DNA of 46,512 nt, taken from Lachnospiraceae bacterium (lineage in GTDB: Bacteria > Bacillota > Clostridia > Lachnospirales > Lachnospiraceae). Within the stretch, counting starts at the first letter, position 1. Each line of letters starts with the position of its first letter. Shown here piece by piece: positions 2,161 to 30,105 of this stretch. The DNA is taken from contig JAFUPV010000040.1 in the NCBI GenBank assembly GCA_017472605.1, positions 1 through 46,512 of the forward strand, written 5' to 3'. The translations under genes and the position numbers were made by a program. The notes beneath the pieces are model-generated. The model made no database searches and was not told where the DNA came from. It saw only the letters and a list, made by a program, of their open reading frames with translations.

Positions 2161-3141
2161 GTGAAGATTGTTATTGCGATTCCTAAAATGGAAGAATATC
2201 GGGATTTATTTGTGGAGGCTGCTCAGGGGAGGGCAGAGCTGGTGTTTTTGGAACCGTCAGCACTTTGTGCAGAATCACTGGCGGATGCAGACGCGGTGAT
2301 TGGAAACGCGCCGGTGGAAGCAATCCGGACGGCAAAGGAGTTGAAATGGCTGCAGATTATTTATGCAGGTGTGGAGACCTATACAGGGAACCCGACGTTT
2401 CCAGGACAGGTGATGCTGACGAATGCAACCGGGGCCTTTGGCGGGATTATTGCGGAATATGTGCTGGCGGGGATTCTCGCCAGTTATCGCAGGCTGTTTC
2501 AGTATAAGGATCAGCAGAGAATGCAGTTGTGGAAGGATGCAGGCAGTGAAAGCATGCTGATGGCGAAGCAGGCTTTGATTCTTGGCGCGGGAGATATCGG
2601 GGAGCAGACGGCGAGGCGATTGAAGGCTTTTGAGGCTTCTGTTACAGGGATTCGGCGTGTAGTAAGGGAAAAACCGGAATGTTTTGACCGGATGGCAGTT
2701 CTGGATGAACTGGATGAGCTGCTTCCTGAAATGGATCTTGTAATTGGATGTCTTCCGAAAACGCCGGAAACGATACATATTCTGGATGAGAGAAGACTGC
2801 GCCGGATGAAGAAAGGCGCGTTGATTGTGAATGTGGGAAGAGGAAGTCTGATTGAGACAGAGGGACTGGTCCGCGTTTTGGAAGAGGGGCATCTGAGCGG
2901 TGCGGTTCTGGATGTGACAGAGGTGGAGCCGCTGCCGCAGGATCATCCGCTCTGGAAGATGGATCAGGTACTGATAACGCCCCATGTTTCGGGGAAGAGT
3001 TTTGGGCATGTAAAGCAGGTAGAGCAGAAAATTATTTCTATTTGCTGCGAAAATCTGAAGCGTTTTCTGGAAGGAAAGCCGCTTTGCAACCGCATTGATT
3101 TTGAAAGCGGGTATGCTGCGGTTGAGAATCGCGGAAGATAA
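2161..3141 (+). CDS. D-isomer-specific 2-hydroxyacid dehydrogenase
   Basis: An NAD(P)-dependent oxidoreductase interconverting 2-oxoacids and D-2-hydroxyacids; 326 residues, normal family size. The Rossmann fingerprint GAGDIG is at 142-147. The catalytic triad of the family can be placed: Arg227 in NVGRGS, Glu256 in EVEPLP and His275 in ITPHVSG. The start is GTG, preceded by AGAGAGG. The substrate is not evident: this is the general branch of the family (glyoxylate/hydroxypyruvate-like), without the ACT domain of long SerA proteins. It lies between the LCP gene and helD with short gaps and no clear terminator, so it may be cotranscribed with helD. Confidence 0.88.
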   Translation: MKIVIAIPKMEEYRDLFVEAAQGRAELVFLEPSALCAESLADADAVIGNAPVEAIRTAKELKWLQIIYAGVETYTGNPTFPGQVMLTNATGAFGGIIAEYVLAGILASYRRLFQYKDQQRMQLWKDAGSESMLMAKQALILGAGDIGEQTARRLKAFEASVTGIRRVVREKPECFDRMAVLDELDELLPEMDLVIGCLPKTPETIHILDERRLRRMKKGALIVNVGRGSLIETEGLVRVLEEGHLSGAVLDVTEVEPLPQDHPLWKMDQVLITPHVSGKSFGHVKQVEQKIISICCENLKRFLEGKPLCNRIDFESGYAAVENRGR

Positions 3142-3197
3142 AAGCTAAGGATGTGATTACAGATAAATGGAACTTTTACAGATAGAGGTGTGTTTGA

Positions 3198-21769: not shown

Positions 21770-21782
21770 GAGACGATAAGAG

Positions 21783-21815
21783 AATTCCGGCAGACCAGTA
21801 ATCTGCCGGAATTTT
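21783..21815 (+). terminator. Rho-independent terminator after rsmI
   Basis: A perfect 12-bp stem AATTCCGGCAGA / TCTGCCGGAATT (21783-21794, 21802-21813) with a 7-base loop is followed by a T-rich stretch. Confidence 0.85.
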
Positions 21816-21884: not shown

Positions 21885-21913
21885 TGTAACCGTTGGATAA
21901 AAATTCCCTCTGA
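21885..21913 (+). promoter_or_regulatory. Candidate ECF-type promoter of the sigma/serpin operon
   Basis: TGTAAC (21885-21890), 16 bases, then CCTCTGA (21907-21913) resemble the TGTAACC and CGTCTA elements of extracytoplasmic-function promoters. A TGAAAC at 21875 is an alternative -35. No sigma-A promoter is evident in the same gap, so autoregulation is plausible. By-eye match only. Confidence 0.35.
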
Positions 21914-22049
21914 CAGAGTGAAGGGCGAAAACAGATCTGTCTGCATGGGTGCAGGACATGGGAGACAGGGAAAAATGCAGATGACCGCAGATACTTAGCG
22001 AAAGGCAGGCGGAGCGGTTAAGGAAATGGAATGGCAAGGGGGTGAGCAG

Positions 22050-22604
22050 ATGGAAGACGAGGAGATTGTCAGATTGTATTTCAGACGAGATGAGGAGGCA
22101 ATCCGGGAAACGGATCAAAGCTATGGAGTGAAGCTGAATCGTCTTGCGCTGAGGATTCTGAATAACAGGGAGGATGCGGAAGAATGTGTTAATGACACGT
22201 ACCTGAAGGCCTGGGATACGATTCCGCCTCAGCGTCCCCGTTTTCTGTATGCTTACCTGGCAAAGATCTGCCGGTTCTTTTCCTTTGGAAAGCTGGACTG
22301 GAAAAATGCGGCGAAGAGAAAGGCGGAAGTGGTGGAATTGACTGCGGAAATGGAAAGCTGCATTCCGGATGGAAGAGTGGAGCGGCAGCTGGAGGGAGAG
22401 GAAATCGGCCGGCTGGTCAGCCGCTTCCTTTACAGCATTCCCCAGGAAAACCGTCTCCTGTTCATGCGCCGCTACTGGTACATGGAATCAATCCAGGAGA
22501 TTGCGCTCCGGTTTGGCATCAGTGAAAGCAATGCAAAGATAAAACTGTTTCGCATTCGGAATCAATTGAAAGAGTTTCTGGAAAGAGAGGGAATTCATTT
22601 ATGA
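22050..22604 (+). CDS. ECF-like sigma-70 family RNA polymerase sigma factor
   Basis: A small sigma factor of 184 residues with region 2 (LALRILNNREDAEECVNDTYLKAW) and region 4 (ESIQEIALRFGISESNAKIKLFRIR, its HTH) and nothing else. It would direct RNA polymerase to promoters of a small regulon, likely its own operon. ATG 22050 follows AAGGGGG at good distance; an in-frame ATG at 22026 is possible. It overlaps the next gene by 4 bases; that product carries an anti-sigma-like N-terminus, the usual arrangement for a sigma and its inhibitor. Confidence 0.9.
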   Translation: MEDEEIVRLYFRRDEEAIRETDQSYGVKLNRLALRILNNREDAEECVNDTYLKAWDTIPPQRPRFLYAYLAKICRFFSFGKLDWKNAAKRKAEVVELTAEMESCIPDGRVERQLEGEEIGRLVSRFLYSIPQENRLLFMRRYWYMESIQEIALRFGISESNAKIKLFRIRNQLKEFLEREGIHL

Positions 22605-24475
22605 CAGGTAATGAACTTCTGGAAGGAATCAGCTTTGTGGATGAACGGCTGGTGATGGAAGCAGAAGAGACGATTGTGAAGAAGAAAAAAGTAAAACGGA
22701 TTCCCTGGAATTCGTTTGCAGCGGCAGCAGCCGGGATTGTTGTTGTGACGGGAGCAGCGGCGGCCTGGAGTCTGCAGTCAGGAAATGGAATCCGGATGAC
22801 AGGTTCGCCTCATGGAAATCCCATCTCGCTGTTGTTTTCCTCGTCGGAAGAAAAGGAAGATGAGACAAATGAGGTTGAACTGTACGGGGCGGCAAACGCG
22901 TCAACGAAAGGATTGGAGATTGCGGAGAAACCGGAGGCAACAGTAGAACAAGAGACAACGATAGAAACAGGAATGAATTCGGCAATTCCGACCAAACCGG
23001 CGGATTCCGAAGCGACACTGTCAGGAACGATAGAACTGGCACAGCCTGAAATTTCGTCCTCTGCAGCCGGATCGACAGCTGCAGCGGAAGTGATTGCACT
23101 GGAAATGGAACCGACCAAACAGGCGGTTCTGGGAACCGGGGACAGGAATGAAACGGTGGGCGAGACAAGTCCGATCAGTGTGGCTGCGGTTCAGAAAACG
23201 GAGGAAGAATGCATAGCGGAGGCTGAAAATGAAAATGCGGCAGAAACGTCTGTTGTGGCTACTGCGGAAACGGAAGTGAGCAATCAGGTGAAGCAGATTG
23301 CTTCTTCCACCAATGAACTGGGCAAGAAGCTGATGGCCGAACTGATCAAAGAAAGTGATGGGGATAATGTGCTGATTTCTTCTTACAGCATTGAAACAGC
23401 ACTGTCGCTGCTGAGTCACTGTTCACAGGAAGGAGAGGCAATCGACCAGCTGCGTGGTTTTCTCGGTACAGACCAGATGACGGAGTCGGAGCTTCTGGCG
23501 GCACAGGCAGAGCTGATGGCGATTCTGTGCGGGGATATGGAAAAGACGGAGAAGCAGAGTCCGGATTCGGGAGAGAATGCGGAGGAAAGCGCCAATGAGC
23601 GAACGGAAAGAGCCTGTGTGGTGGAGATTGCCAATGCCGTCTATGTGAATGAGGATCTTCCGCTGGTACCGGCTTTTGAACAGATGCCGAAGCTGCTGGA
23701 AAGCTATCAGAGTGAGATTGCGGTAAAGGATCTGTCAGCAGTGGATACGATGAATGAAATCAATGACTGGGTGAATGAGAAGACCCATGAAATGATTCCG
23801 TCTGTCCTGGATGAGCCGTTTGATGAGATGATGCAGATGGTTCTGATGAACACGGTATATTTTTATGGCAGCTGGCTCCATGATTTCCGGGGAACGCCGG
23901 TGGAAAATCAGCCGTTCTATGGCGCGGATCGGGAAACGGAAGTGCCGATGATGAGACAAAAGAATACGTTCCTTTACGCGGAGACGGAGGACTATCAGAT
24001 CATTCAGCTGCCGTATCAGGCAGATTACCGGATGGACGTTTATCTGCCGAAGGATGTGGAGCTGACGGGACAGTGGAGTCAGGAGGGATATCTGCAGCAG
24101 CTGACGGAGGAAGCATATCCGTTTGAGGAAACAAGAGTGATTCTGCAGATGCCTCAGTTTGAAATGGAATTTGGTGTGGAGCTGAGCCAGGTGCTGGAAT
24201 CCATGGGATTGGAATCTGTTTTTGAACCACAGATCTATGACCGGATCAGTGAGACGGAACTTGGTGTCGGTCAGATTCTTCACAAGACGGCACTCCGGAA
24301 TGATGTGGAGGGAACAGAAGCGGCAGCTTTGACCATGGTGACCATGTACGGTGCAGCAATGGAAACGGTAATTCCGGTGGAGATGACGATTGACCGACCA
24401 TTTTATTTTACAATTACCCATGAAGAAACCGGATTGGATCTGTTTGAGGGATGTATTCTGAATCTGGAGGAATAA
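22601..24475 (+). CDS. Membrane-anchored serpin with anti-sigma-like N-terminus
   Basis: 624 residues. Residues 1-36 are cytoplasmic and of the short ELLEGISFVDE...KKKK type found on transmembrane partners of clostridial ECF factors. A membrane helix spans about 37-57. An acidic Thr/Ala/Ser/Glu-rich stalk runs to about 225, and a complete serpin domain covers about 228-624. Serpin landmarks are the NDWVNEKTHEMIPS segment, LMNTVYF, the hinge GTEAAALT (571-578) and the IDRPFYF strand. Counting from G571 as P15 puts P1 near Ala585, so an elastase-type target is possible. Serpins trap serine or cysteine proteases by cleavage-driven refolding. Gene order and the N-terminus suggest this one also holds the sigma factor at the membrane. 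That dual role is inference. Confidence 0.82.
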   Translation: MTGNELLEGISFVDERLVMEAEETIVKKKKVKRIPWNSFAAAAAGIVVVTGAAAAWSLQSGNGIRMTGSPHGNPISLLFSSSEEKEDETNEVELYGAANASTKGLEIAEKPEATVEQETTIETGMNSAIPTKPADSEATLSGTIELAQPEISSSAAGSTAAAEVIALEMEPTKQAVLGTGDRNETVGETSPISVAAVQKTEEECIAEAENENAAETSVVATAETEVSNQVKQIASSTNELGKKLMAELIKESDGDNVLISSYSIETALSLLSHCSQEGEAIDQLRGFLGTDQMTESELLAAQAELMAILCGDMEKTEKQSPDSGENAEESANERTERACVVEIANAVYVNEDLPLVPAFEQMPKLLESYQSEIAVKDLSAVDTMNEINDWVNEKTHEMIPSVLDEPFDEMMQMVLMNTVYFYGSWLHDFRGTPVENQPFYGADRETEVPMMRQKNTFLYAETEDYQIIQLPYQADYRMDVYLPKDVELTGQWSQEGYLQQLTEEAYPFEETRVILQMPQFEMEFGVELSQVLESMGLESVFEPQIYDRISETELGVGQILHKTALRNDVEGTEAAALTMVTMYGAAMETVIPVEMTIDRPFYFTITHEETGLDLFEGCILNLEE

Positions 24476-24528: not shown

Positions 24529-26025
24529 ATGAAGAAAAAACGGGTTCATGGATTTCTTTTGATGGGAGCTGTTTTGCTGGCGCAGATGGGGAGCGGTTCA
24601 GGGGCAGCGCAGGATGTCTGCGCAGAGGAGCTGGTCGTGGAAGTGTTCAGTTCGGCAGCTAATGATGGCAATTCGGTTTCTGATCTGGAAGTAGAAGTAT
24701 CAGGAGCTGCGGCGGATTCGTTTGAAGTGAGCGGCATTGTCGTGGAAGTCAGTTCGGTAGCGGATGCAGGTACGGGAGTCGGTTCTGCAACGGAGACGGA
24801 TGGAGGTGCGGGAGCAGGTTCGGTCAGTGATGCGGTGTGCGGCGTTGCTCCTGCGGAACCGATGGAGATTCTTGTAGATGGAAATAACTGGCTGGGAAAC
24901 CGGTTGATGGCAGAGCTTGCCGAAGACGGGGAAAATGTTTTTATCTCTCCATACAGCATTGCATCGGCACTGTCGATGCTGAGACATTGTTCCGAGGAGG
25001 GAGATCAGATCGAGGAGCTCATAAGTCTGCTTGCCTATGATGCGCTGACGGAGGATGAGATTCTGATGGCACAGGCAGAGCTGCTGGTGCAGCTTCGCCC
25101 GGACTATGGGATGGACTGGATGACGCAGGAGGAGAAAGAGTGGTCGGGAATCGGCACACTGGAAATCGCCAACGCGATTTATGTGGATGATCAGCTTCCT
25201 CTGCTGTCGGATTTTGAGATTTTTAAGGCACTTCTGTCGGGCTATGAGGCAAAAGTGGCGTTTCGGCCTCTGGAAACGGTGGAGACGATGAATGAGATTA
25301 ATGACTGGGTCAATGAGAAGACGCATGAGATGATTCCGTCTCTGTTTGAGGAGCCGCTGAGCACCGATGATGTGATGGTGCTGCTGAACGCGGTGTATTT
25401 TCTGGGAAGCTGGGAAAGTGCGTTTCCGGAACAGAACACGGATGTGCAGACCTTCCATGGACTGCATGGAAATTCGCAGGTTTCGATGATGCATCAGACC
25501 TGTGACTATCGGTATGCGGAAACGGATTCTTATCAGATGGTTCAGATTCCGTACAGCAGCCGGTATCAGATGACCGTTTATCTGCCGAAGGAGATTTCGG
25601 AGACGGAGAACTGGACGGACGCGGAATATCTGCAGAAGCTGACCGGACAGGAATATTCCTGGGAACAGGCGGAAGTGACGCTTTCCATGCCGAAGTTTGA
25701 ACTGGCATATGAAGCGGAGCTGGTTCCGGAGCTGGAGGCGTTTGGTCTGGAAGCGATTTTTGAGAAGCGGGTCTATGACCGGATTTCAATCGAGCCGATG
25801 TACATGAGCCGGATGATCCACAAGACAGCCATTTCCAACAACGAAACGGGAACGGAAGCGGCGGCTGTGACAGCGATTGTGATGACCAATGAATCGGCGA
25901 TGATCTTGAATCGAACGGCTGAAATGACGATTGACCGCCCGTTCTATTTTACCATTACCCATGAAGGAACCGGTACCAATCTGTTTGAAGGATGTGTTTT
26001 TGATCTGGAGGGGCAGGAAAAATAG
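24529..26025 (+). CDS. Secreted serpin (second of three)
   Basis: 498 residues from ATG 24529, which follows AAAGGGGG; an in-frame ATG at 24451 lies inside the previous gene and lacks a site. A signal peptide with basic start and hydrophobic core likely ends at VCA-EE near residue 33. A Val/Ser/Gly/Ala-rich linker to about 115 is followed by the serpin domain. The DWVNEKTHEMIPS segment, the hinge GTEAAAVT (441-448) and IDRPFYF are intact, so inhibition rather than a storage role is expected. With G441 as P15, P1 falls near Glu455 and P1' Ser456, a rare acidic P1 that would suit a glutamyl endopeptidase. The gap from the first serpin is 53 bases with no terminator. Confidence 0.85.
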   Translation: MKKKRVHGFLLMGAVLLAQMGSGSGAAQDVCAEELVVEVFSSAANDGNSVSDLEVEVSGAAADSFEVSGIVVEVSSVADAGTGVGSATETDGGAGAGSVSDAVCGVAPAEPMEILVDGNNWLGNRLMAELAEDGENVFISPYSIASALSMLRHCSEEGDQIEELISLLAYDALTEDEILMAQAELLVQLRPDYGMDWMTQEEKEWSGIGTLEIANAIYVDDQLPLLSDFEIFKALLSGYEAKVAFRPLETVETMNEINDWVNEKTHEMIPSLFEEPLSTDDVMVLLNAVYFLGSWESAFPEQNTDVQTFHGLHGNSQVSMMHQTCDYRYAETDSYQMVQIPYSSRYQMTVYLPKEISETENWTDAEYLQKLTGQEYSWEQAEVTLSMPKFELAYEAELVPELEAFGLEAIFEKRVYDRISIEPMYMSRMIHKTAISNNETGTEAAAVTAIVMTNESAMILNRTAEMTIDRPFYFTITHEGTGTNLFEGCVFDLEGQEK

Positions 26026-26060: not shown

Positions 26061-27473
26061 ATGAGAACAAACAGGCGAATGAAAGGAATGGCTCTGACGG
26101 CGATGGTTCTGGCAGCGAATGTGGGAGCTGTGGTCAGTCAGACAGGGGCTGTTCTTGCAGAGGAAACGGTGACAATGACATCGCAGGCAGCGGTGCTGCC
26201 GACGGATAATACCGGATATGTGCCGATGGAGGAAGTGATGGAGATGGAACAGAGTCCGATTGATGTGATCGTAGAAGGAAATAATCAGTTTGGAACGGAG
26301 CTGGTGATGATGCTGGCGAAGGAGGGGAAGAATGTTTTCATTTCTCCCTACAGCATTACATCGGCGCTGTCCCTGCTGAATCACTGCTCCGAGACAGGCG
26401 AGCAGGTGGAGGAGCTGCGCAGCTTTCTTGGCTATGACTCGTTAAGTGAGGAGGAGCTTCTGGCGGCGCAGGCCGATCTGCTGGAACAGCTTCGCCCGGA
26501 TTATGGGCTGGATGGTCTGACCGTTGAGGAGAAGCAGGAGCTGGGAATCGGCTCGGTGGAGATCGCCAATGCGGTTTTTGTGGATGATGATCTGGCTCTG
26601 ATTCCGACGGACCTGACGAAGAATACGCTGAGTGATGTGCTGGCGGCTTACCAGGCGGAAATTGCAAGTAAGGAACTGTCCAGTGAGGAGACAAAGGATG
26701 AAATCAATGCGTGGGTGAAGGAGAAGACCCATGAAATGATTGATTCGCTGCTCAATGAGCCGTTAAGCGAGGATACGGCGATGCTTCTGATGAATACCGT
26801 GTATTTCATGGGCAACTGGACCAACAGCTTCCCGGAAGAGGCGACCGATGAGCAGACGTTCCACGGCGCAAATGGGGATACGCAGGTTTCGATGATGCAC
26901 CAGCAGGACCGGTTTGGCTATGCGGAGACGGAAAGCTATCAGCAGATCATGCTTCCTTACAATTCCGGATATGTGATGAACGTCTATCTTCCGAAGGACG
27001 GTGTGAGTGTCGAGGACGTCAGCAGCGAACTTTATCAGAATGCGCTGAATGGTCAGGAAATTTCTTATCAGTCGAAAGAGATGATCCTGTCCATGCCGAA
27101 GTTTGAGATGGAATACAGCGCTCAGCTGAAGGATGTTCTGATGGAGATGGGTCTGGAGAAGATTTTTGATTATGCGGTTTATGACCGTGTTTCTGAGGCG
27201 GAGATGGGTGTGAGCCAGATCCTTCACAAGACCGCGCTGAAGAATGACGAGCACGGTACGGAAGCTGCTGCTGTGACGGCAATCATGGTTGAGACCATGG
27301 CACTGATGGAGCCGGAAACGCCGATTGAGGTGACGATTGACCGCCCGTTCTATTTCACTATCACTCACAGAGGAACCGGAGTGAATCTGTTTGAGGGCTG
27401 TATTTTTGATTTGGAACCGGAGCAGTCGGGGGAAACCGTGTCTTCGACGGAGGCGCCGACAGGATTAAGATAA
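26061..27473 (+). CDS. Secreted serpin (third of three)
   Basis: 470 residues. The signal peptide likely ends at VLA-EE near residue 34, a short linker follows and the serpin domain begins near 73. Landmarks are as in its neighbours: AWVKEKTHEMIDS, LLMNTVYF, hinge GTEAAAVT (399-406), IDRPFYF. With G399 as P15, P1 falls near Met413 with P1' Ala414, as in elastase-type inhibitors such as alpha-1-antitrypsin (P1 Met). The C-terminus has a 15-residue Ser/Thr/Glu tail absent from the other two. It starts 35 bases after the second serpin and is the last gene of the operon. Confidence 0.86.
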   Translation: MRTNRRMKGMALTAMVLAANVGAVVSQTGAVLAEETVTMTSQAAVLPTDNTGYVPMEEVMEMEQSPIDVIVEGNNQFGTELVMMLAKEGKNVFISPYSITSALSLLNHCSETGEQVEELRSFLGYDSLSEEELLAAQADLLEQLRPDYGLDGLTVEEKQELGIGSVEIANAVFVDDDLALIPTDLTKNTLSDVLAAYQAEIASKELSSEETKDEINAWVKEKTHEMIDSLLNEPLSEDTAMLLMNTVYFMGNWTNSFPEEATDEQTFHGANGDTQVSMMHQQDRFGYAETESYQQIMLPYNSGYVMNVYLPKDGVSVEDVSSELYQNALNGQEISYQSKEMILSMPKFEMEYSAQLKDVLMEMGLEKIFDYAVYDRVSEAEMGVSQILHKTALKNDEHGTEAAAVTAIMVETMALMEPETPIEVTIDRPFYFTITHRGTGVNLFEGCIFDLEPEQSGETVSSTEAPTGLR

Positions 27474-27493: not shown

Positions 27494-27563
27494 AAAAGGG
27501 AGTGCTCTCCTGGAGACGGACAGAGATGTGGAATCTGTTGTCTCGGGGGGAGTGCTCCCTTTT
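27494..27563. terminator. Long hairpin terminator after the serpin operon
   Basis: AAAAGGGAG (27494-27502) pairs with CTCCCTTTT (27555-27563), and an inner imperfect stem (GAGAC..ACAGA with TCTGT..GTCTC) fills the loop. T-rich sequence follows on the plus strand and A/T pairs flank both sides, so it may work in both directions and also end the minus-strand remnant. Confidence 0.65.
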
Positions 27564-28120: not shown

Positions 28121-29434
28121 ATGTTAATTCAATTTAATTTCAAAAATTTCAAATCATTCAGAGAAGAGGCTACGTTGGATTTATCAGCAATGAAGATGAC
28201 AGAGTTTTCAGAGAGAGTAGTGACTGTTGGCAGCGAGAAAATTTTACCGGTTGCTGCTATTTATGGTGCAAATGCAAGCGGAAAGTCCAACATATACAAT
28301 GCTTTTGAATATATGTCCAATTATGTTGTGGATTCATTTAAGTATGGAGATGAAGAGGAAAAGTTTGAGGAATTCAGACCAACTCCATTTTTGTTTGACT
28401 CCACATCTGCCAATGAGGAATCCAGTTTTGAGGTATATTTCACATTGCCCGGCGATAAGTCTGAGAGAACCTATAACTATGGTTTTTGCATTAATAGGGA
28501 TGGTGTAACCGAAGAGTGGCTTAATTCAAAGGCAAAGACGGCCAGAAAATACAGCACAGTATTTTATCGCGGAACTGCTGACGAGGAGCTTGACTTGTCC
28601 GGATTTCCCAAGAGCAGCAGGGATAATATTCAGGTGGCATTGGAAAAGCAGGTGCTTATCATTTCTTTGGGAGCAAAATTGAAGATTGGTAAGTGTAAGG
28701 CAATCAGAGATTGGTTCCTTGCTAATGAGTTTGCTGATTTTGGTAATCCGTTTACTAATTTCTTTCTGTCACATAGATTGCCGAAGGGATTTGTGGAGGA
28801 TAAAAGTGTGCAGCAGAAGGTTGTGGAGTATTTTGCATCCTTTGATGAACACATTAAGGATTTTAGAATCGAAAGGGTTCCTCAGGAGGCGGAAAGCAAG
28901 GAAGAGAGATATAAGATCAACGCACTTCACAAAATGATTGATGCTGATGAAATGGCAGAAATTCCTTTGGGACAGGAGTCTGCCGGAACTTTGAAGATGT
29001 TTGCGTTATATCCGGAATTGCAGGAAGTTCTGGAGAAGGGCAGCGTATTTTTCATTGATGAATTAAATGCTCGTCTGCACCCGTTACTTGTAAGAAATTT
29101 CCTGCTTACCTTCTTAAATCCGGAAATCAACATCAATCATGCTCAGCTTGTATTCACAACTCATGACACGTGGCAGTTATCCAACCAGTTGCTGCGCCGT
29201 GATGAAATCTGGTTTGTAGAAAAGGATGACAGGGGAGTATCTACTTTGTATTCATTAGCTGATTTCGTGGATGAGGACGGATCTCATATTCGTAAGGATG
29301 AAAGCTATGAGAAGAATTACCTGGTTGGAAAGTATGGTGCGATTCCTATGCTTAAGGCACTGGACATCTTTAAGGACGCTCTGATACAAGTGTCTAAGGA
29401 AGCAGACTTATCACCTCGGAAAGAGGAGGATTAA
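28121..29434 (+). CDS. AAA-family ATPase, RloA/AbiLi-like defence component
   Basis: 437 residues of the SMC/RecF-like AAA_15/AAA_21 type. The N-terminal strand-loop FKNFKSFRE precedes Walker A GANASGKSN (about 50-58). The C-terminal half has Walker B FFIDELNARLHP and the switch FTTHDT. Paired with an RloB-type gene 2 bases downstream it matches the AbiL abortive-infection arrangement (AbiLi ATPase, AbiLii RloB). The ATPase is expected to sense phage infection and regulate its partner. Codon use is more AT-rich than the neighbouring operons, in line with transfer. Confidence 0.82.
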   Translation: MLIQFNFKNFKSFREEATLDLSAMKMTEFSERVVTVGSEKILPVAAIYGANASGKSNIYNAFEYMSNYVVDSFKYGDEEEKFEEFRPTPFLFDSTSANEESSFEVYFTLPGDKSERTYNYGFCINRDGVTEEWLNSKAKTARKYSTVFYRGTADEELDLSGFPKSSRDNIQVALEKQVLIISLGAKLKIGKCKAIRDWFLANEFADFGNPFTNFFLSHRLPKGFVEDKSVQQKVVEYFASFDEHIKDFRIERVPQEAESKEERYKINALHKMIDADEMAEIPLGQESAGTLKMFALYPELQEVLEKGSVFFIDELNARLHPLLVRNFLLTFLNPEININHAQLVFTTHDTWQLSNQLLRRDEIWFVEKDDRGVSTLYSLADFVDEDGSHIRKDESYEKNYLVGKYGAIPMLKALDIFKDALIQVSKEADLSPRKEED

Positions 29435-29436
29435 GT

Positions 29437-30105
29437 ATGGCTAAAAAGGACAGAACAGGTAACAGAAAATTCCGTGAACAAAGAAAACAGTACAAGGTAC
29501 CGGAATTAGGCTACTACTTAGTTGTTACGGATACAGAGGCTACGGAGCGCTGTTTCTTCAATGGGCTTCATCAGGCATTGCCGAATGATGTGAGAAACAA
29601 GCTTGTGATAAAGGTGGTAGAGACGAAAACTCGCACTATGATTGATAAATGTCTGGAACTCACTGCTTATGATGCACAATATCGGATTCCCTGGATTGTA
29701 TTTGACAGAGACCAGGTACAGGGGTTTGATGAGATTATAAAAGAGGCAGAGGAGAAAGGAATACAAGTAGGCTGGTCCAATCCATGCTTTGAGATATGGA
29801 TGTATGCCTACTTTGGTTCCATGCCGGCAATCCAGGACTCTTGGACTTGTTGCTCTGAGTTTGGACGGGTATATGAAACTAAGACTGGGCAGAAGTATTC
29901 CAAAGCAGATGAGCAGATGTATGGAAAAATCTGTAAAGCTGGTGACGAGGAAAAAGCAATTCGGATAGCACATAAGAAGTTGGAGCAGTGTATCAGAGAA
30001 GGAAAAACAAAGCCATCAGATATGTGCCCGTGTACGACGGTGCATAAGTTCGTAGGGGAGATTAAGGCAAAACGGAAAGCGTATGAAGAAACGGGTATTG
30101 TTTAG
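29437..30105 (+). CDS. RloB/AbiLii-like effector protein
   Basis: 222 residues. RloB family marks are the basic N-terminus, the strand with TDTEATE (the family usually has EGExTE at this place), the DRD motif in IVFDRDQ, and SNPCFEIWMYAYF. These positions resemble a TOPRIM-like nuclease core. The first acidic residue is Asp instead of the usual Glu. It follows its ATPase after 2 bases with site GAGGAGG. The presumed role is a toxic nuclease released or activated by the ATPase during infection. Confidence 0.8.
   Translation: MAKKDRTGNRKFREQRKQYKVPELGYYLVVTDTEATERCFFNGLHQALPNDVRNKLVIKVVETKTRTMIDKCLELTAYDAQYRIPWIVFDRDQVQGFDEIIKEAEEKGIQVGWSNPCFEIWMYAYFGSMPAIQDSWTCCSEFGRVYETKTGQKYSKADEQMYGKICKAGDEEKAIRIAHKKLEQCIREGKTKPSDMCPCTTVHKFVGEIKAKRKAYEETGIV

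Follow-up and report, generated by a model that had tools for sequence, protein, structure and literature searches.

A membrane-anchored serpin as candidate sensor of an ECF sigma factor in Lachnospiraceae

Can a protease inhibitor that works only once serve a bacterium as a receptor? This question is raised by a locus on a 46,512-bp contig of a Lachnospiraceae bacterium (GenBank assembly GCA_017472605.1, contig JAFUPV010000040.1), the whole of which is called the window here, and its genome the host genome. In this locus, a gene for an extracytoplasmic function (ECF) sigma factor overlaps a gene encoding a membrane protein of 624 amino acids (aa) with a serpin domain, and two further serpin genes follow (Table 1). 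An earlier note, made from the letters of this DNA, had proposed that the serpin-bearing protein is the anti-sigma partner of the sigma factor. The analyses described below, which are based on sequences and structure models, make it probable that this fused protein is a receptor-type anti-sigma factor with a serpin sensor, in which protease attack on the reactive loop would lead to loss of the anti-sigma protein and so free the sigma factor. Sigma binding, protease sensing and the later cleavage steps are the parts of this scheme that we infer. If it is true, a suicide inhibitor acting as receptor would unite the detection of proteases, the defence against them and the renewal of the sensor in a single protein, and would turn the irreversible chemistry of serpins into a means of signalling.

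The fused protein and its N-terminal segment

The sigma protein matches the Pfam families Sigma70_r2 and Sigma70_r4_2 above their cut-offs and, with regions 2 and 4 only in fewer than 200 aa, has the make-up of an ECF sigma factor. Its ATG at 22050 is better placed than the start at 22026, having GGGGG a few bases upstream (by reading), and its stop codon overlaps the start codon of the fused gene in ATGA. In the fused protein, Pfam Serpin matches residues 236-621 (E 1.3e-72; 245.6 bits against a gathering score of 27), the structure matches listed for whole-chain queries (50 Foldseek rows, and also those of VIA) are serpins, and residues 40-58 form the most hydrophobic 19-residue stretch. These results bear out what the earlier note had read from the locus, namely a sigma gene overlapping that of an anchored serpin with one membrane helix and a full serpin domain. 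By prediction, the layout is that of a transmembrane anti-sigma factor, with a cytoplasmic N-terminus, one membrane helix and a gene overlapping the sigma gene; net charge is higher ahead of the helix than behind it in this and all other fused serpins described below (18/18). AlphaFold2 modelled the serpin domain mostly with pLDDT above 90 and most of the linker between helix and serpin with values under 50. The long acidic stalk of the note does exist in the window protein, where this linker measures 177 aa, but it is untypical, being 37-121 aa long in 16 fused serpins of other genomes; in a second fused copy of the host genome it reaches 660 aa.

No Pfam or NCBIfam family was found over the N-terminal segment. 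A Pfam scan of the fused protein with E up to 0.1 returned Serpin only and not DUF3298, the outer domain of RsiV. Residues 1-100 gave no Pfam match with E up to 1, and hence no RsgI N-terminal domain, the mark of the RsgI family. We built a profile on the N-terminal 30 residues of 29 proteins that have no serpin match in the part fetched and whose genes lie beside related sigma genes. It contains no serpins and not the window protein; L075 was a duplicate, and three of the 29 (L018, L024 and L078) end at the edge of their locus, any further outer domain lying outside the fetched part. With this profile we scored 154 serpin open reading frames (ORFs) of the family, which come from 133 fetched regions, the second host-genome locus and the window (150 of about 209 family serpin matches listed, plus 2 from another search; 8 of the 154 have under 1.5 kb upstream). 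Eighteen serpins score 11.9 bits or more, and the next best scores 3.8. The window protein reaches 19.8 bits, so that its N-terminus, which the note had called anti-sigma-type, is by this measure of the same kind as in the non-serpin proteins next to related sigma genes.

As a control, serpin ORFs were taken from 80 loci of a genome collection, mostly of other phyla or unplaced and some of Clostridia. None of these 118 ORFs matches the profile (best 2.9 bits), and none has a sigma gene upstream, although 14 of the loci hold under 1.3 kb there and a sigma gene could be missed. Together with the recurrence of the pairing, this control rules out chance or an artefact as its origin. The short inner end is likely an anti-sigma segment that holds the ECF sigma factor encoded just upstream. 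That it is a membrane anchor only, the sigma factor being regulated by something else, would agree with the lack of a Pfam or NCBIfam family over it; yet the same segment stands right after sigma genes in the 29 non-serpin proteins, which have other outer parts, and lipoprotein serpins are anchored without it. We consider this explanation highly improbable.

The 18 fused serpins are spread over 16 genomes, which bear 16 genus codes. The earlier note had suggested a search of genomes for sigma genes adjoining such fusions, and had counted homologues without a neighbouring sigma gene as evidence against its proposal. The search came out mostly in its favour: a complete sigma gene lies upstream of 16 of the 18, directly adjacent in all but one of these (15/16), and the remaining two have a hybrid gene (L122) and a broken frame (L206). 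In L122 (ORF 2689-3193, reverse strand), a 168-aa XRE-type helix-turn-helix protein ending in a sigma-region-4-like part precedes the fused serpin, and the serpin anti-sigma may hold back this hybrid transcription factor. In L206, the upstream sigma gene appears to be split into broken frames, by decay or an assembly error, while the fused serpin is open. The non-adjacent case, L163 (3311-6473), has the order sigma, secreted-type serpin and fused serpin, placing a secreted serpin between the sigma factor and its likely anti-sigma. In L204, another gene for a sigma factor of this type follows 274 bases past the fused serpin. The two secreted serpins downstream, to which the note had also pointed, are present in the window but are not a general feature, because a further serpin near the fused gene was seen in only 2 of the 18, the window and L163 (about 0.7-1 kb downstream is covered in the 16 from other genomes). 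In most loci, therefore, the fused serpin is the sole serpin seen under the likely control of the sigma factor.

In 79 other genomes of the family that have both gene types, 24 sigma-serpin regions were found versus about 0.15 expected by chance, a rough estimate with differing cut-offs. Fifteen of these regions are fused (one with the hybrid). The other nine have a separate layout, consisting of the sigma gene, an anti-sigma-like gene with a similar start (by eye) and then an anchored serpin; eight of these serpins have a lipobox (by eye), and the one in L147 is anchored by a membrane stretch. A sample of 245 genomes from the class gave four loci outside the host genome, one fused in another family (G445) and three of separate layout. 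The fusion thus spans 16 genera of one family and occurs once in another Clostridia family. Its recurrence across 16 genera makes it likely that these bacteria detect an attacking protease by means of the inhibitor that it consumes. Among the best 120 of 4984 relatives of the L183 protein, one of the fused serpins, in a protein database, 54 carry the N-terminal segment. One of these 54 is a protein of Hominifimenecus sp. rT4P-3 (Lachnospiraceae), whose NCBI name is only "serpin family protein". Among the best 120 relatives of the window protein, the segment is present only in the window's own protein.

Five sigma genes of this type are present in the host genome; a sixth match is weak. Each of the five overlaps the next gene, whose product has a hydrophobic stretch, a start like NELLEGISFVDERLVMEAE, EKLYLEIGNIDDDLIEEAA or KKWMEAFSEIDDAYLKEAM, and outer parts that vary. 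A second sigma/fused-serpin pair lies on another contig (L005:3518-7392, contig C18); its fused protein of 1098 aa has repeat-like stretches between the helix and the C-terminal serpin, and no other serpin adjoins it. Two anti-sigma-like partners of related sigma factors in this genome are a 1213-aa protein with repeats (L013:2094-5735) and a 171-aa protein followed by transporter-like genes (L012:2599-4380). Another 37 sigma loci were read, and in 30 of them the next gene has a similar start. The motif is missing from the next gene in L022, L056, L059 and L065; L011, L021 and L023 have another kind of next gene or a misread strand, and L019, L070 and L071, with stops in the sigma gene, were left out of this reading.

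Control and evolution of the unit

All four genes likely form one transcription unit under a single ECF-type promoter-like element. A promoter scan reported no sigma70-like sites on the + strand between 21700 and 27900. The pattern TGTAACC-N25-28-GTGAA has one match in the 3.68-Mb host genome (95% complete), which is at the window, and the reversed control has 0. A dyad search for promoters had given mostly A/T-rich pairs; the 7-mer TGTAACC, which is present in 11 of 60 upstream regions versus a shuffled mean of about 1, led to the bipartite element. This element recurs upstream of related sigma genes in other genomes, in many cases together with a -10 region resembling CTATATAG or CGTC; apart from copies of the window, 5 further fetched loci contain the exact window pattern. 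When a scoring matrix was trained on 10 of the 60 upstream regions, 18 of the 50 non-training regions exceeded the 99% null score versus 0.5 expected (three of the 18 are near-identical); 9 of the 16 fused regions in the set pass this threshold, two of them being training rows. Because the promoter-like element is unique in the genome and recurrent before related sigma genes, the unit is probably controlled by its own sigma factor, and it may be nearly all of that factor's regulon.

In a tree of 152 serpin domains, from which two short fragments were left out, 14 changes of the fused label are required, and well-supported branches force at least 9 of them. This rules out a single origin of the fusion; the scatter of the fused serpins in the tree implies that it was gained or lost several times. 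In the sigma tree the label is dispersed as well (13 changes, at least 3 forced), but this tree has weak resolution, and 100 of 500 label shuffles give counts as low. The fused serpin of the window clusters with the two secreted-type serpins beside it and with a same-genus serpin (support 100), and the sigma factor closest to that of the window (59%) is paired with a non-serpin protein. Distances between sigma factors and between N-termini are correlated (r 0.41, 55 pairs, p 0.0002; r 0.43 among 17 fused), with shared ancestry not removed; the L122 hybrid is included in this test and in the sigma tree. These results fit an exchange of outer domains in which the anti-sigma segment remains with its sigma factor.

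In another explanation, the anti-sigma is released by some other signal, e.g., envelope stress via a site-1 protease, the serpin serving solely as an effector held at the surface. Since the anti-sigma-like partners of the sigma paralogues in the host genome have quite different outer parts, the kind of outer domain may depend on the task, and the nine loci of separate layout keep the serpin as an anchored protein of its own. However, a lipoprotein would suffice for an effector, and the serpin has nevertheless been fused to this segment as often as the 14 changes, at least 9 of them forced, indicate. We regard an effector role alone as quite unlikely.

Protease sensing and transmission of the signal

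Inhibitory serpins have a hinge with Gly at P15, Thr or Ser at P14 and small residues at P12-P10, and a long loop; the window hinge, GTEAAALT, is of this type. A simple hinge regular expression, which classed 5/18 fused and 85/136 other serpins as inhibitory, overlooked loops whose P14 is Cys or Val and misplaced some loops; it was dropped, and loop residues were read from alignment columns instead. Gly at P15 is present in 148 of 152 serpins, including all 18 fused ones. The fused serpins all have Ala or Gly at P1' (69/130 in the others), mostly Ala, Gly or Ser at P1 (13/18 versus 53/130) and never Lys or Arg there (0/18 versus 11/130), and because of these residues we suggest attackers that are elastase- or subtilisin-like and not trypsin-like. 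By canonical count, P1-P1' of the window's secreted-type serpins are Glu-Ser and Met-Ala, and the three window loops might cover different proteases. Many fused loops, and also some non-fused cousins, share Gly-Ala-Ala/Gly-Met-Pro around the presumed scissile bond, as if they had one target protease in common.

After sensing, the receptor-type anti-sigma would probably be cleaved beside the membrane and then by a site-2 protease of RseP/RasP type (M50 family); an M50 protease gene is present in the host genome. The freed sigma factor would direct transcription of its operon at the element 21885-21924, giving more anchored serpin and restoring the brake. As each serpin can act only a single time, the spent sensor would thereby be replaced from the operon. 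In the host genome the two secreted serpins would be raised as well, and in loci without a second serpin the fused serpin would mainly renew itself.

The motif AxA, as in signal-peptidase sites, is found within 45 residues past the helix in 12 of 18 fused serpins versus a shuffled mean of 6.1 (0/500 as high), although many of them belong to a single clade of serpins. The motif is not in excess in non-serpin anti-sigma-like proteins (6/30 versus a shuffled mean of 7.8). A comparison within one clade is better suited: among the best 120 relatives of the L183 protein, AxA stands just before a conserved YP-rich segment in 51/53 fused proteins versus 33/59 lipoprotein cousins, and a stricter form in 41/53 versus 14/59; the rows are related, and 2 grey-zone proteins were merged into the fused class (56/120). 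For a signal-peptidase site as a general feature of fused proteins, these counts are only suggestive. The model of L183 is ordered from about residue 62 on, so that the segment near the membrane forms an ordered whole with the serpin body, with strand 65-68 over the AxA. L183 matches native tengpin (PDB 2pee) from residue 62, within its linker, and latent tengpin from residue 113; the structural aligner gives only first and last residues of such ranges, and most other L183 rows also start near 113. According to passages of PMC8233489, the native state of tengpin is stabilised by its N-terminal tail, which docks near strand s1A. Loop insertion might therefore free the AxA in L183.

A more specific scheme, which we put forward as doubtful, would have the metastable serpin clasp the membrane-near signal-peptidase segment as tengpin does its tail. 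Cleavage of the loop and its insertion would unclasp the segment, signal peptidase and a RasP-like protease would destroy the anti-sigma, and the sigma factor would rebuild the sensor. If so, bacteria would read protease attack as an irreversible, single-shot event.

Several observations weigh against a receptor-type anti-sigma with a serpin sensor. The N-terminal helices are modelled at low confidence, being two short ones in the window protein (residues 3-10 and 15-26, block pLDDT 57-68) and a single one in L183 (residues 4-21, pLDDT under 50). Only 6 of the 18 fused serpins have Thr or Ser at P14 (it is missing in 12), and 12 of the 18 have Tyr or Phe at P9, unlike the textbook hinge. AxA is missing from the post-helix stretch in 6 of 18 among sequences that are related, and the only one that the window protein has in these 45 residues lies about 40 residues away. 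Seven of the 16 scored fused regions fall short of the promoter threshold, 16 of the 18 fused genes are without a second serpin in the fetched stretch, and serpin-domain distances also track those of the sigma factors, less strongly (r 0.29, p 0.014). Finally, loop insertion could hardly be transmitted mechanically through the 177-aa linker of the window protein; mechanical transmission is unlikely there because the linker is long and disordered.

This last point leads to a guard role, in which the serpin shields its own anti-sigma stalk and the sigma factor is freed once the inhibitor is spent, so that the pair measures an excess of protease and not a change of shape. It needs no mechanical coupling, and the unstructured linker of the window protein and the 660-aa linker of the second host copy are possible protease targets. 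However, the linkers of the 16 fused proteins of other genomes are much shorter, and that of L183 is modelled as ordered from about residue 62. A guard role is unlikely as the overall explanation; for the window protein, with its long disordered linker, it is a serious rival of a sensor responding to the cut loop.

Related systems and features of the locus

SigI is a different sigma type. The RsgI/SigI pairs of cellulosome clostridia resemble the present case in having several sigma/anti-sigma pairs per genome and exchangeable outer sensor domains; the sensors described in passages of PMC3413522 and PMC12484212 bind polysaccharide, and no serpin is among them. Another parallel is RsiV, the lysozyme-binding membrane anti-sigma that is paired with SigV in Bacillus subtilis and Clostridioides difficile; it is cut by signal peptidase at an AxA just outside the membrane and then by RasP, as set out in parts of PMC4183432 and PMC9044953. 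There, the outer part binds the host enzyme directly and the sigma operon protects against it, whereas enzyme binding by the fused serpin, like its site-1 and site-2 steps, is inferred only, and the RsiV outer domain is not a serpin. Most likely, the fused serpin works like RsiV with an unrelated outer domain, and is not RsiV. In CnrY, a class II ECF anti-sigma, a short two-helix part touches sigma4 and sigma2 (from passages of PMC7406223); the window segment is similar in length and in its low-confidence model only.

Among bacterial serpins, the one of Bifidobacterium breve is protease-inducible, with a two-component system beside the serpin operon. As in our scheme, protease raises the serpin; in the parts of PMC8012564 concerned, the serpin is not described as the sensor. 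Extracellular-protease sensing by bacteria is little described; the one protease-inducible system named in these passages is this two-component system. Siropins, which like miropin come from human-associated bacteria and belong to the same domain family, inhibit neutrophil elastase and proteinase 3 but not subtilisin (passages of PMC5127057), and these targets are in line with the small P1 of the fused loops. Siropins and miropin are presented as inhibitors, and passages of PMC5127057 and PMC8233489 mention no anti-sigma part. Tengpin, in the latter source's passages, is a thermostable serpin and not a membrane sensor. The same superfamily analysis notes membrane-anchored prokaryotic serpins, and the word sigma is absent from its main text (PMC8233489). 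Among the papers listed by searches of open-access literature, none treats a serpin as an anti-sigma or as a sensor of this kind, as far as titles, abstracts and some passages go.

Table 1. Features of the sigma factor/serpin unit, all on the + strand of the window.
Feature	Position	Strand	Basis or remarks
Terminator-like hairpin of preceding gene	21781..21815	+	14-pair stem, T-rich tail
Promoter predicted for own sigma factor, TGTAACC-N26-GTGAAGG	21885..21924	+	-35 box, -10 region, start region
ECF sigma factor gene	22050..22604 (longer ORF from 22026)	+	ORF, Pfam
Serpin-bearing anti-sigma-like membrane protein, 624 aa	22601..24475	+	ORF, Pfam, N-terminal profile, AlphaFold2
Predicted cytoplasmic anti-sigma-like segment, residues 1-39	22601..22717	+	N-terminal profile, 19.8 bits
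Predicted membrane helix, residues 40-58	22718..22774	+	Mean hydropathy 1.78; preceding charge more positive than following
Acidic low-complexity linker, residues 59-235	22775..23305	+	Translation; mostly pLDDT under 50
Serpin domain, residues 236-621	23306..24463	+	Pfam, AlphaFold2, Foldseek
Hinge and reactive loop, GTEAAALTMVTMYGA|AMETV	24311..24370	+	Ala-Ala taken as P1-P1' (canonical count of 15 residues)
Second serpin, secreted type, signal-peptide-like N-terminus (by reading)	24529..26025	+	Pfam; 53 bases past fused gene
Third serpin, secreted type, signal-peptide-like N-terminus (by reading)	26061..27473	+	Pfam; 35 bases past second serpin
Terminator-like hairpin closing the unit, T-rich tail	27494..27563	+	-48.6 kcal/mol, z -7.4, 0/200 shuffles as good

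Behind the serpin unit, at 28121-30105 of the window, genes for an AAA ATPase (AbiLi-like) and an RloB protein (AbiLii-like) form a candidate anti-phage AbiL pair.

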